Shown: piece after piece, positions 51,676-57,683 of the stretch
Layout: the number at the start of each line of letters is the position of its first letter
Position numbering within the stretch: the first letter of the stretch is position 1
Source of the DNA: an uncultured Bacteroidales bacterium
GTDB lineage: Bacteria > Bacteroidota > Bacteroidia > Bacteroidales > Muribaculaceae
Assembly (NCBI GenBank): GCA_902785925.1
Contig: CADAAI010000002.1
Span: 1-64,000 of the forward strand
Direction: 5' to 3'
Length of the DNA: 64,000 nt
Translations under genes and position numbers: made by a program
Notes under the pieces: generated by a model
Told to the model about the DNA's origin: nothing
What the model saw: the letters and a program-made list of their open reading frames with translations, nothing else
Database searches by the model: none

Positions 51676-51712
51676 AACATCCAGAAGCAAATGCTACTGG
51701 ATGTTGTTTTTT
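51676..51712. terminator. terminator after the CCA/MGMT fusion gene
   Basis: AACATCCAG (51676-51684) pairs with CTGGATGTT (51697-51705), with an inner AGC/GCT stem, then a T-run to 51712 that abuts the stop of the convergent repeat-protein gene. Confidence 0.85.
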
Positions 51713-52169
51713 ACATTATAGTTAGAAGAACTGGTATTGGAATTCTACCAGAAATGGTGAAGACAATGTCGCTGGTATAGGTGCTTCGACCTCGGTAGAT
51801 GTGCTTGCCAATGACTGTGTTCATTATATCGCTACTATAAGTGCTGCGACCGTCATAAACATATTTTCCATCCCATGTGGCAATGATGTCGCTACTATAA
51901 CTGCTTCGGCCTTGATAGAGATACTGTCCATCCCATGTACCGAGAATGTCGCTGCTGTAGGTGCTGCGGCCAGCATAGAGATACTTTCCATCGTAAGTGA
52001 GGAGAATATCGCTACTATAGGTGCTGTTGCCCTTGTAGAGGTATCGTCCATCCCATGTTGCGATAATATCACTGGTGTAGGTGCTATTGCCTCGATAAAG
52101 GTGAGACACAGCATGCGCATGAATAGAAATGACAATTATCGCGATTAATAGAAACAATGTCTTTTTCAT
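51711..52169 (-). CDS. secreted 20-residue-repeat protein (beta-flower-like)
   Basis: A 152-residue protein with a signal peptide (residues 1-20, ...IHAHA). The mature part is six near-identical 20-residue repeats of the form YxGxSTYSSDIxxTWDGxYL, matching 60-bp DNA repeats in the gene. Small Bacteroidota proteins with this repeat are described as 4- or 5-fold beta-flower proteins; that link is from memory and tentative. No function is known. It is next to a GtrA-like gene, nine bases away. Confidence 0.75.
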   Translation of the reverse strand: MKKTLFLLIAIIVISIHAHAVSHLYRGNSTYTSDIIATWDGRYLYKGNSTYSSDILLTYDGKYLYAGRSTYSSDILGTWDGQYLYQGRSSYSSDIIATWDGKYVYDGRSTYSSDIMNTVIGKHIYRGRSTYTSDIVFTISGRIPIPVLLTIM

Positions 52170-53347: not shown

Positions 53348-53875
53348 TTATTTGCTTGGAGTCACAATCACTCCGATGTCAATAACATTTTTAACCACAT
53401 CGCAGTTGTTCATCGCCTGCCACACCACTATAGAACACACCTGTGATGGCGTTACTCCCTGAGCGATCACAATACTTGACTGATAGATGGCTCCAAATCC
53501 AGAGCCTTTCCAGTTGCCATATCCATCGCTCAGTTCAAAATCGATATTGCTTCGATTCACGTTCTTCACACTATCGATGAGATCGACTGCAAGACTTAGA
53601 TTGCTATATTGATAATCGTTGTTGTGACGAACAGCAAGAGCGATATCGTAGGTAAGCGATGAGTCGGCATACTCTGGAGTGAACTTTATTGACATCTCTT
53701 TGTTCCAGCCATCGTCGGGAAGAGTTTTAAAATGCGCCATTGAATCTTGCCCAAACGAACAACCGTTTAGGCAAGACAAGGCACATAATAGTATTGTCAC
53801 AATCGCAATGACATGCCGATGCAATATTAATTTTACGTTACTTGTCACTGTTACTTGATTGTTGAGATTTTTCAC
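53348..53875 (-). CDS. gldH: gliding motility-type lipoprotein GldH
   Basis: A 175-residue lipoprotein of the GldH family, first defined in gliding Flavobacterium and widely kept in non-gliding Bacteroidota. The lipobox is LNGC near residue 39, after an unusually long n-region. The body has DGWNKEMSIKF, LAVRHNNDYQYSNL and GSGFGAIYQSS, which fit the family. The ATG at 53875 overlaps the end of ricT by 38 bases; a TTG at 53821 is a possible shorter start. Together with ricT it is a conserved pair. Confidence 0.82.
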   Translation of the reverse strand: MKNLNNQVTVTSNVKLILHRHVIAIVTILLCALSCLNGCSFGQDSMAHFKTLPDDGWNKEMSIKFTPEYADSSLTYDIALAVRHNNDYQYSNLSLAVDLIDSVKNVNRSNIDFELSDGYGNWKGSGFGAIYQSSIVIAQGVTPSQVCSIVVWQAMNNCDVVKNVIDIGVIVTPSK

Positions 53876-55226
53876 GAGATGAAGGATTGTTCTTAGGTCG
53901 CTTATCAGGGTTGCGAGGCCGGAATTCCTTCAGACCAGTGGGAGGCATGGGACGCTGTCCAGCAAATCGACGATTGTCGCGCCCACGTCCACGTCCAGGC
54001 CGCTGTGGTTCCGGAGGATTGCCTCCACCTTTCTTTGGTTGGACTTTGCCAACTTGTTTTGGCTGCTTGTCCTTGTTTTCAACAGGTGGTTGCTCACCCT
54101 TACTGCGGCTCTTCTTTTTCTTCTTTTTCTTAGTATTGTCGAAACGACTGATACTGTCCTGCCCTACTAGATCACCGTAGGCACTTTGCTCAATGTTTAC
54201 CTCAAAGTCGGAACCTTGCAAGCGCTCAGGTTTTATGCCTTGGTTGTTGAGTGCAGCGATCTCGATAACACGTTCGGGTGAAATAGTAACGAGGTCAGTA
54301 GGAATGCCTTTCTCGGTTGAGTAGGTGATTTCACGTTTAAGAATATCGGTCTTAAAGTGATAGTAGCTTTTATCCTTAGTCTCAAGTACAATATCACGCT
54401 TGGGAAGCGATTTAGATGCCTCAACATAGGTGTCGACTTCAAAATTGATACAGCACTTGAGCTTAGCACATTGACCGGCAAGTTTCTGTGGATTTAAAGA
54501 AACCTCTTGATATCTTGCTGCACTAGTTGCTACCGACACAAAAGTACTCATCCAACTTGCACAGCAAAGTGGCCTGCCACAAGGCCCAATGCCACCAATG
54601 CGTCCAGCCTCTTGGCGCGCTCCAATCTGCTTCATCTCGACACGAATCTTGAAAACGTCGGCAAGTACCTTGATGAGCTGGCGGAAGTCGACGCGACCAT
54701 CGGCAATATAATAGAAAATAGCCTTGTTGCCGTCGCCTTGATACTCAACATCGCCAATCTTCATCTCAAGGCCCAAATCCTTAGCTATCTTGCGGGATCG
54801 TATCATTGTATCGATCTCTTTGGCCTTGGCCTGCTCAAAGCGCTCAAGGTCGGCAGGTTTAGCCTTTCGAAAGATTCGCAGAATTTCAGCATCGGGACGT
54901 AACCTGGTTCGCTTCATTTGAAGTTTCACCAAGTTTCCAGTGAGAGCTACAGTTCCAATATCGTGCCCAGGATTAGCCTCAACGGCTACTACATCGCCCT
55001 GCTTGAGGTCGAGTTTAGCTGAATTGCGGTAGAATCCCCTCCTAGTGTTTTTGAAGTGGACTTCCACAATGTCGAAGTCATTTTTTCCCCCAGGTACGTC
55101 GTCAAGCCAATTGAAACTGTTGAGGTTGCACCGAGTGTCGCACTTGTTGCCACACCCAGCACATCTTTCACATTGGCTGTTATTGGATTGCTGCAGTGAA
55201 TTAGATCGATTGTTAATCTCGTCCAT
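53838..55226 (-). CDS. ricT: PSP1/RicT family regulatory protein
   Basis: A 462-residue protein with the PSP1 C-terminal domain, related to Bacillus RicT (YaaT), part of an Fe-S complex that affects RNase Y. A Cys-rich N-terminus (CERCAGCGNKCDTRC) precedes the domain, which includes GGIGPCGRPLCCASW and GQCAKLKCC, likely cluster ligands. The last 110 residues are Lys/Pro/Gly-rich and disordered. The gene lies 11 bases downstream of rny, which fits a functional link with RNase Y. Confidence 0.88.
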   Translation of the reverse strand: MDEINNRSNSLQQSNNSQCERCAGCGNKCDTRCNLNSFNWLDDVPGGKNDFDIVEVHFKNTRRGFYRNSAKLDLKQGDVVAVEANPGHDIGTVALTGNLVKLQMKRTRLRPDAEILRIFRKAKPADLERFEQAKAKEIDTMIRSRKIAKDLGLEMKIGDVEYQGDGNKAIFYYIADGRVDFRQLIKVLADVFKIRVEMKQIGARQEAGRIGGIGPCGRPLCCASWMSTFVSVATSAARYQEVSLNPQKLAGQCAKLKCCINFEVDTYVEASKSLPKRDIVLETKDKSYYHFKTDILKREITYSTEKGIPTDLVTISPERVIEIAALNNQGIKPERLQGSDFEVNIEQSAYGDLVGQDSISRFDNTKKKKKKKSRSKGEQPPVENKDKQPKQVGKVQPKKGGGNPPEPQRPGRGRGRDNRRFAGQRPMPPTGLKEFRPRNPDKRPKNNPSSREKSQQSSNSDK

Positions 55227-55237
55227 TCCTCACGAAA

Positions 55238-56779
55238 TTATTTTGCAAAGCTTACGGCACGAGTCTCACGAATCACAGTGATTCGCACCTGTCCTGGATA
55301 GGTCATCTCGTCCTGAATCTTCTGTGCGATTTCGGTCGAGAGTTTCTCGGTCTCCTGATCAGTAATCTTGTCGGCACCAACTATCACGCGTAATTCACGA
55401 CCAGCCTGGATGGCATAGGTCTTAACAACACCAGGATAAGACATTGCCAAGCGTTCCAGATCGTTCAAACGCTTAATATAGGCTTCAACAACCTCGCGAC
55501 GTGCACCTGGTCGTGCACCTGAAATAGCATCACACACTTGCACAATTGGGGCATAGAGACTTGTTGCCTCTTCCTCATCGTGGTGAGCACCAATAGCATT
55601 GCAGATGTCGGCTTTTTCCTTGTATTTCTCGGCCAACTTCATGCCTAGTTGAGCATGTGGCAATTCAGGCTCATCATCGGGCACCTTGCCAATATCGTGC
55701 AACAGACCAGCTCGGCGTGCTTTCTTTGGATTCAATCCAAGCTCGCTAGCCATTACAGCGCATAGATTGGCTGTTTCACGTGAGTGCTGAAGCAAGTTCT
55801 GTCCGTAACTAGAGCGATACTTCATTTTACCTATCAGGCGAATGAGTTCGGGGTGTAGACCGTGAATACCCAAGTCGATAGCAGTTCGCTTACCGGTTTC
55901 GATAATCTCGTCTTCAACTTGACGGCGAACCTTGGCTACCACTTCCTCGATGCGTGCTGGATGAATGCGCCCATCGGCAACCAATTGATGCAAAGCCAGG
56001 CGTGCAATCTCACGGCGCACAGGATCGAAACTCGATAGGACAATAGCCTCGGGAGTGTCGTCAACAATGATTTCGATACCAGTAGCTGCTTCAAGAGCAC
56101 GGATGTTGCGTCCCTCACGTCCAATGATGCGTCCTTTCATTTCATCATTATCGATGTGGAAAACGGTCACAGCATTTTCAATAGCTGTTTCGGTTGCCAC
56201 TCGCTGAATAGTTGCAACGATAATGCGCTTGGCCTCCTTATTGGCGGTGAGTTTAGCATCGTCCATTATATCGTTGATGTAGCTAGCAGCAGCAGTTTTA
56301 GCTTCGTCCTTAAGCGACTCAACGAGTTTCTCTTTAGCCTCCTCGGCTGAAAGGCCACTTACGTGCTCGAGAGTGTCACGCACCTTGAGTTCCATCTTAT
56401 CAACCTCTTTCTTGCGGTCTTCGAGCACTGCAAGCTGGTTGTCGAGATTAACCTTTAAGTTGTCGGTCTCGGTTTTCTTGCGTTGCAGCTCTTGCTGTTG
56501 CTGGTTAAGTTGTATCTCTCGCTGTTTGAGTTTAGCCTCACTCGATTGAACCTTGGCAAGACGTGCATTGGCCTGCTTTTCGCTCTCGCTCTTTATAGCA
56601 AGACCTTCTTCCTTACCTTTTAGCACTTCATTGTTTTTTAGCACTTCGGCTTCGAGTTTAGCTTTCTCTACAATCGTGTTGGCTTGTGATTTGGCACTAC
56701 GCTTAGAAAACATGCTTGCCAAAATTGCACCAATAACCAAAGCCACGACTGCAATAACAATATAAATAAGTATTTCCAT
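55238..56779 (-). CDS. rny: ribonuclease Y
   Basis: A 513-residue membrane-anchored endoribonuclease that starts mRNA decay. The order is an N-terminal membrane segment (residues 2-24), a long coiled coil (30-190), a KH domain ([18 protein letters not shown]) and an HD domain ([14 protein letters not shown]). The ATG at 56779 is chosen because the anchor starts there; an upstream extension adds only hydrophobic codons. A candidate structured RNA with a terminator lies just upstream (56805-56894), so rny may be partly controlled by read-through. Confidence 0.94.
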
Positions 56780-56804
56780 TATAAAAAAATAAAATAATAT
56801 AAAT

Positions 56805-56894
56805 AAAAAAGCACTGCTCACAACAAGAATCACCGCTACGTTTGGCGGCTCTTGTAGAAGGTGTGTTCAAAAGAACAACCTTTGTGAGAAGTGC
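56805..56894 (-). ncRNA. candidate structured RNA, three-way junction with terminator
   Basis: On the minus strand this folds into a closing stem of 11 pairs and one mismatch (56883-56894 with 56811-56822), enclosing two hairpins. One is 56858-56882, with AAGGT/ACCTT and GTTC/GAAC around an AAAA loop on the plus strand. The other is 56823-56855, with ACAAGA/TCTTGT and CCGC/GCGG. Six T residues follow, as in a terminator. It lies between zapA and rny. A relative of 6S RNA (the Bacteroidota 6S-Flavo class) is a guess from location and size; a leader element of rny is the alternative. Confidence 0.6.
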
Positions 56895-56961
56895 AGGAAC
56901 CTATTAATTCAATATATACTCGCCTTAAATATGGGTATTTTAACCTTATAAAGCGATAAAA

Positions 56962-57261
56962 TTAAATCTTCACAACCACATCATTGAGCTGTTGCTCAAA
57001 TGCGGTTAGGAATTTATTGACAGCGACATTTTGATTATAAGACTTAGAATAAAGCCTTGCAAACTGGAATGCAACCATAGCCATGACACGTTGCGACGAA
57101 TTGTCATCGTCGAACTTGTCGATCCATTTGTTCCACAACGTATTGACAAGCTTCTCGGCTTCACGGTAGCTTGCTTCCTCGTCGCTAGGAATGGTGAGCG
57201 CAATAGGCTCAACATCGGCAATTCTTATGAGTATATTCAGGTTGTTATCGTTTGTTGCCAT
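56962..57261 (-). CDS. zapA: cell division protein ZapA
   Basis: A 99-residue ZapA-family protein that cross-links FtsZ filaments. The N-terminal strand LNILIRIADVEPIALTIPSDEEASYREAEKLVN and the C-terminal coiled coil (QRVMAMVAFQFARLYSK) match the family. It starts nine bases after a small coiled-coil protein that may be its partner. Confidence 0.85.
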   Translation of the reverse strand: MATNDNNLNILIRIADVEPIALTIPSDEEASYREAEKLVNTLWNKWIDKFDDDNSSQRVMAMVAFQFARLYSKSYNQNVAVNKFLTAFEQQLNDVVVKI

Positions 57262-57270
57262 AATCGTGCA

Positions 57271-57564
57271 TCATTCATTAAGTTGAGCGATGCATTTGTC
57301 AATGTCCCGCACTAGTGTGGAGATTGTGGCTCTGGCGTGATCCACATTGTCGAGATTAGGAGCGACAACTCGCGCCATTTTCAAGAATTCCACTTCTTGA
57401 CTCAACTTTTCATTGTCTCTCTTTATTTGCTCTATCTCTTTTACAAGTTGCTCTTTCTCGCTTACCAGCTCAGCATTAATGTTCTCGAGCGCATGGTATT
57501 TCTCAACTAAGATATTGCTCTTGTTGATGATACGTGTCAGCGTTTGTTGCAACTCATTTGCCAT
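57271..57564 (-). CDS. small coiled-coil protein, possible ZapA partner (ZapB-like)
   Basis: A 97-residue, almost entirely helical protein. A leucine/charged heptad pattern runs from LTRIINKSNILVEKYHALENI to LSQEVEFLKMARVV, then a short tail. The ATG at 57564 (MANELQQ) is preferred; the frame is open six codons further. Such a protein often sits upstream of zapA in Bacteroidota, so a divisome role is inferred from position only. Confidence 0.72.
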   Translation of the reverse strand: MANELQQTLTRIINKSNILVEKYHALENINAELVSEKEQLVKEIEQIKRDNEKLSQEVEFLKMARVVAPNLDNVDHARATISTLVRDIDKCIAQLNE

Positions 57565-57683
57565 AGCTCTCCAAAATTTCACAAAAGTACAAAAAATATT
57601 TCTACCTACACTAAAATTAATTCTTTTTTTATATAATTTTATTAAAAATGCAATTATTATAGTTTAAATAGACAAAAAACGCT

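Follow-up and report, generated by a model that had tools for sequence, protein, structure and literature searches.

In beta- and gamma-proteobacteria, the 6S RNA gene ssrS is found in the gene order zapB-zapA-ssrS (PMC7641849). In Bacteroides, a 6S RNA accompanied by pRNAs has been detected experimentally (Ryan et al., PMC7366714), and this RNA probably corresponds to the family Bacteroidales-1 (RF01693), which carries the title '6S-Bacteroidales RNA suggested' in Rfam. A second line of work concerns the leaders of genes for RNases that initiate mRNA decay: RNase Y of B. subtilis autoregulates its own expression, partly via cleavage in the rny 5' UTR (PMC10303841), and its sites favour single-stranded RNA, often after a G and with structure further downstream (PMC11780869). 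In the open literature no report was found of a Bacteroides RNA between zapA and rny, nor, with the main 6S survey outside the scope of the search, of the order zapA-6S-rny in Bacteroidales, and priority is not claimed.

The locus considered here lies in a stretch of 64,000 nucleotides, referred to as the window, from the metagenome-assembled genome of an uncultured bacterium of the Muribaculaceae. On its minus strand, a gene for a 98-aa coiled-coil-like protein (57271-57567) directly precedes a zapA-like gene (56962-57261), which is followed by an intergenic gap, by rny encoding RNase Y (55238-56779; NCBIfam TIGR03319, 644.6 bits) and by ricT encoding RicT (53838-55226; NCBIfam NF041131). Neither of the two upstream genes has an NCBIfam match. 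Position and relatives fit a ZapA-type protein for the gene called zapA, as the same kind of protein precedes the gap in distant families, and by analogy with the proteobacterial clusters the coiled-coil-like gene is perhaps a ZapB counterpart. Elsewhere on the minus strand of the window (51711-52169), a predicted 152-aa protein with a signal-like N-terminus carries imperfect repeats of about 20 residues (RGxSTYSSDIxxTxDGxYLY). Many of the relatives with which the window genome was compared come from ruminants, and the set includes one Candidatus Sodaliphilus.

The gap between zapA and rny, taken as a 181-nt stretch, folds at -48.3 kcal/mol compared with -30.2 +/- 4.0 for shuffled sequences (z = -4.5), and 0 of 200 shuffles reached so low an energy. 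The fold and a match to R1, a model of the element (52.5 bits at 56801-56907), delimit a hairpin RNA with an intrinsic terminator at 56800-56906 on the minus strand, with a predicted transcript of about 95-105 nt. Its closing stem (56894-56883 paired with 56822-56811; 12 positions, one mismatch) encloses two inner hairpins, and the base pairs of all three mostly have probabilities of 0.8-1.0. The terminator U-run (56810-56805) stops about 25 nt short of the rny start codon and corresponds to a T-rich tract kept in relatives. At the 5' end lies a 12-mer that is identical in most relatives, AGGUUCCUGCAC (56891-56902), of which the AGGUUCCU part is unpaired or weakly paired while GCAC forms the base of the closing stem; if the flanks are included in the fold, the U-rich tail offers weak pairing partners (probability 0.5-0.6) to the window's A and the first G of the motif. 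An earlier note on this DNA had described a closing stem, two internal hairpins and a minus-strand T-run and had read them as a structured RNA with a terminator, and both the fold and the covariation among relatives bear this out. The three-way junction that the note took as the defining shape is created by inner hairpin 1 (56882-56858), which is private to the window sequence and whose approximately 27 extra nt are the main difference from the close relative L003. Alignment with the same relative identifies inner hairpin 2 (56855-56823) as the counterpart of the single apical hairpin of the relatives, and the other 69 elements are single long hairpins.

From RNase Y and ZapA neighbourhoods in the same genus and near relatives, 77 distinct zapA-rny gaps were collected, 70 of which contain AGGTTCCTGCAC; these 70 were chosen by the motif, and this choice accounts for part of its invariance among them. 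In an unbiased count, 87 of 101 genomes belonging to the genus contain the exact 12-mer, as do 45 of the 48 good ones. Model R1 gave one match per genome in 85 of the 101 genomes and at the level of the order matched 1 of 294 genomes, the window's own, which restricts the 12-mer form to the genus. The conserved feature thus consists of the 5' 12-mer, the closing stem and the U-run, without a three-way junction. In the lowest-energy folds of the 70 elements, computed from the GG onward, GGUUCCU is unpaired and the stem closes on GC(A)C, and the closing-stem pairs are above shuffles across the 70 sequences. The interiors of the elements vary widely in sequence and fold well (mean z -3.0; 66 of 70 below -1). 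Because the inside turns over, a DNA search with the whole element matched relatives at the 5' and 3' ends only.

The earlier note had proposed to look for covarying stems in the zapA-rny gaps of relatives, and such stems were found. In the apical stem of the 26 alignable relatives, 51 cells had changed on both sides compared with 16.2 in shuffles, and the covariation score of 0.369 stands against 0.186 for shuffled sequences and at most 0.102 with the partners slid. At the apex of this hairpin (columns 44-56 of alignment A2) the U-A and G-C pairs of a UG...CA arrangement are kept in nearly all 26 relatives, and their retention while the stem below turns over suggests a recognised loop. At the base of the element, 28 of 70 sequences have GCGC as the 3' strand and thereby lack the A-U pair, yet the 5' GCAC remains fixed, so that the sequence itself is selected beyond pairing alone. 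No second copies of the motif above chance were found in the window's own genome or in the 101 genomes, where extra exact 12-mers occur at the level of a reversed-pattern control. One of the two best sites with one mismatch in the own genome (L120) falls within a large ORF.

The 70 sequences share no strictly conserved block upstream of the motif. Nevertheless, 50 of them have a TTG 8-17 nt before the motif, compared with a mean of 11 and a maximum of 23 in 1000 shuffles, a contrast in which independence is overstated as the sequences are related; for windows further upstream the corresponding count is 14-19. The bases before the TTG are A/T-rich, TATATTG being an example, which agrees with the -7 consensus TAnnTTTG of sigma-ABfr (PMC7366714), and in the window TATATTG at 56910-56916 (minus strand) is the candidate -7 element. 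The signal was seen in 6 of 31 sequences from other short-slot genera and is thus a feature of this genus only. The enrichment suggests that transcription starts a few nucleotides before AGGUUCC from a promoter belonging to the element.

Across the Bacteroidales, the gap before rny, here called the slot, exists in two states. A short hairpin with C(C)YGCAY at its base and a T-run fills it in Muribaculaceae, Bacteroidaceae-like and neighbouring families, and in 21 of 21 sampled distant families it holds an RNA of about 200 nt that is homologous to Bacteroidales-1. The gene upstream of these distant slots is ZapA-like wherever its end was correctly placed. The slot RNAs share the conserved blocks GAAACUCAACA, CAGGCCUC, GUGGAAG and CCAUGUUU..GGGGUUU and are closed by GCCCGCAUU/AAUGCGGGUUUUUU. 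In a search of 40 genomes with RF01693, seven that had no strong copy elsewhere gave their best or sole match in the slot, in each case just upstream of rny and on its strand (37.5 bits, E 1.3e-4 in G028; the other six weaker), while short-slot genomes carry a strong copy elsewhere (90-160 bits). The homology is also seen in the opposite direction, as a model built from 17 slot RNAs only, R3, recovers Bacteroidales-1 loci in short-slot genomes with coordinates identical to those from RF01693 (70 bits with E 6e-15, 62, 46 and 42 bits) as well as four held-out slot RNAs (37-137 bits). The Bacteroidales-1 copy of the window genome, located downstream of rplT (G000:C5:9925-10110, 115.8 bits), is beyond the reach of R3 and is linked to the slot RNAs through RF01693.

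In its consensus fold the putative 6S RNA of the slot has seven strongly covarying helices arranged as an unbranched rod, a modelled shape that is as expected of a 6S-type RNA. RF01693 scores these RNAs below its gathering score or misses them (for example L173-L194), while R3 scores them at 96-179 bits, apart from an outlier at 37 bits (L189) and with 17 of the 21 having been used in building the model. Many Bacteroidales families therefore probably have a 6S RNA that is missing from their annotation. Immediately upstream of the slot RNA, about 240-310 nt upstream of rny (L173-L194), 17 of the 21 distant families carry GTTCTTT(G/A)A, which resembles the boxA of rRNA-leader antitermination and is rare in short-slot gaps (2 of 30 and 2 of 77). 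Such a signal might let zapA transcripts pass the 6S terminator into rny. In one genome (G026), a tmRNA lies directly downstream of rny (L172, 3116-3513).

On a midpoint-rooted RNase Y tree of 49 genomes the state of the slot changes once (SH-aLRT 92), and the short-slot genomes are a single group nested within those with a slot 6S RNA. In Bacteroidales, the zapA-rny gap is where the 6S-type RNA ancestrally lay. Within the short-slot group, L174 branches first. Its short slot, ACCCGCAUUAUU...AAUAAUGCG-UUUU, has an alignment to R3 that spans both ends of the model and lacks only the middle (17.1 bits, with E 0.015 over 129 kb and 1.4e-5 for the 121-nt stretch), and its genome also carries a relocated copy (L212); judged by its sequence, it is an intermediate between the two states. 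C[C/T/G]GCAY is present at the base of the hairpin in about 28 of 34 short slots as opposed to 1 of 241 terminators outside the slot, and two Muribaculaceae slots (L159, L160) still hold CCCGCAC...GUGUGGGU. The short hairpins share about 7 nt per end with the ancestral RNA and, besides L174, none matches R3, which makes a fresh terminator in the same gap conceivable. Most likely, and with good support from the tree, the intermediate and the retained ends, the short hairpin is the collapsed remnant of the slot RNA; as the slot holds a 6S-type RNA in distant relatives and this RNA is found elsewhere here, the hairpin looks like a re-used old 6S gene. Two slots, one in a Prevotella-titled genome (L105) and one in Muribaculaceae (L162), are without a clear terminator hairpin, which indicates that the remnant can be lost.

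The explanation that we favour, and which seems somewhat better than even, is that the element is what was left in place when a 6S gene relocated and its old copy collapsed, and that it persists as a terminating leader RNA in front of rny. In an ancestor of Muribaculaceae, Bacteroidaceae and related families, the copy elsewhere, here after rplT, would have taken over, and of the old gene only the ends would have survived, with the closing strand on the 5' side and the closing strand plus U-run on the 3' side now enclosing a short replaceable hairpin. The remainder would have been kept as a short terminating transcript directly before rny, and this genus would have its own promoter a few nucleotides upstream of the invariant unpaired AGGUUCCU. 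Transcripts from this promoter and from zapA would mostly stop at the U-run, which lies so close to the rny start codon that there is no room for a usual promoter, so that rny would be reached by readthrough; the fraction reading through would supply the rny-ricT mRNA, and the hairpin would in this way set rny expression. Control of rny by the hairpin is likely on this arrangement of parts, and an attenuator of rny, as had been suggested before, fits a layout in which a terminator is placed between a promoter-like element and the gene. For an antiterminator alternative, no competing fold was present in the minimum-free-energy structure or the pair probabilities of the gap. The invariant unpaired 5' segment next to a stable stem could serve as a site for a trans-acting factor, possibly RNase Y itself. 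A more specific version, which we put forward only tentatively, is that the vacated 6S locus was re-used for a new regulatory RNA, which retained the old ends without the promoter-mimicking middle and evolved an invariant 12-nt motif read in trans; the old 6S locus would in this way be tied to the level of RNase Y.

The main rival to the remnant leader is an independent trans-acting sRNA, roughly 100 nt long, that would have a promoter of its own, an invariant unpaired seed at the 5' end and a terminator, and whose adjacency to rny would be merely inherited. The TTG enrichment, the fixation of the GCAC of the 12-mer even where no A-U pair remains (28 of 70) and a layout like that of GibS with its single-stranded conserved 5' end (PMC7366714) would all support this reading; however, no conserved perfect complement to the motif was found, exact extra copies across the 101 genomes are at chance, and the element has remained beside rny, which leaves the sRNA possible but less probable than a leader. 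Slightly less probable still is an autocontrol leader in which RNase Y cleaves at AGGUUCCU just 5' of the hairpin. Such a mechanism has its precedent in the cleavage of the B. subtilis rny 5' UTR (PMC10303841) and would suit a motif that is unpaired or weakly paired, contains a G and stands at the foot of a stable stem, but known RNase Y sites are AU-rich with a weak motif (PMC11780869), unlike an invariant 12-mer, and the motif does not extend beyond one genus, unlike rny and the hairpin. We consider it unlikely that the element is a plain terminator that ends zapA transcription without any regulation, for although a hairpin with a U-run directly follows zapA in nearly all short-slot genomes, this would leave the invariant 12-mer, the promoter-like element and a hairpin of 55-102 nt with a covarying apex unexplained. 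That the element is this genome's 6S RNA, as its position after zapA would recall from ssrS in beta- and gamma-proteobacteria (PMC7641849), can practically be dismissed given that it has no Rfam match, no match to R3 and no central bubble, and that Bacteroidales-1 is present elsewhere in the genome at 115.8 bits.

The searches behind this last point cover the covariance-model checks that the earlier note had proposed for 6S and 6S-Flavo, which gave no match for the element: no Rfam family matches the window at the gathering score or the region at E <= 10, and 6S-Flavo is absent from the window genome. A large central bubble is likewise absent from all 70 elements, which fold as tight hairpins. 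The hunch of a 6S RNA drawn from the placement next to zapA thus fails for the RNA itself and holds for the place, since the zapA-rny gap is occupied by a Bacteroidales-1 homologue in all 21 sampled distant families.

As the ancestral place of the Bacteroidales 6S-type RNA, the zapA-rny gap echoes the proteobacterial zapA-ssrS arrangement, and a single relocation that left a conserved hairpin behind would be a rare traceable fate for a vacated regulatory-RNA gene. In addition, R3 provides 6S candidates in many families that are under-scored by the Rfam model, and the hairpin offers a concrete leader by which RNase Y expression may be set in gut Bacteroidota.

Compared with the known systems, the element is closest to Bacteroidales-1, with which it shares the slot occupied in distant families, the C(C)YGCAY type of 5' closing strand and the 3' terminator with its U-run, while it has half the length, does not form an unbranched rod interrupted by internal loops and is missed by both the Rfam model and R3. 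The proteobacterial order zapB-zapA-ssrS resembles the succession of coiled-coil gene, zapA and slot described here, but the window element is without a 6S fold and the downstream gene is rny rather than ygfA/EVE. As in GibS-type sRNAs of Bacteroides (PMC7366714), a conserved unpaired 5' end is combined with a terminator hairpin, in this case with a different sequence and in a position adjacent to and upstream of rny. Finally, the stem-loop of the rne 5' UTR and the leader of RNase Y in B. subtilis (PMC10303841) likewise place a structured leader before the gene of a decay-initiating RNase; in contrast to them, the window element has an intrinsic terminator and shares no sequence with them, and its autoregulation is a proposal.
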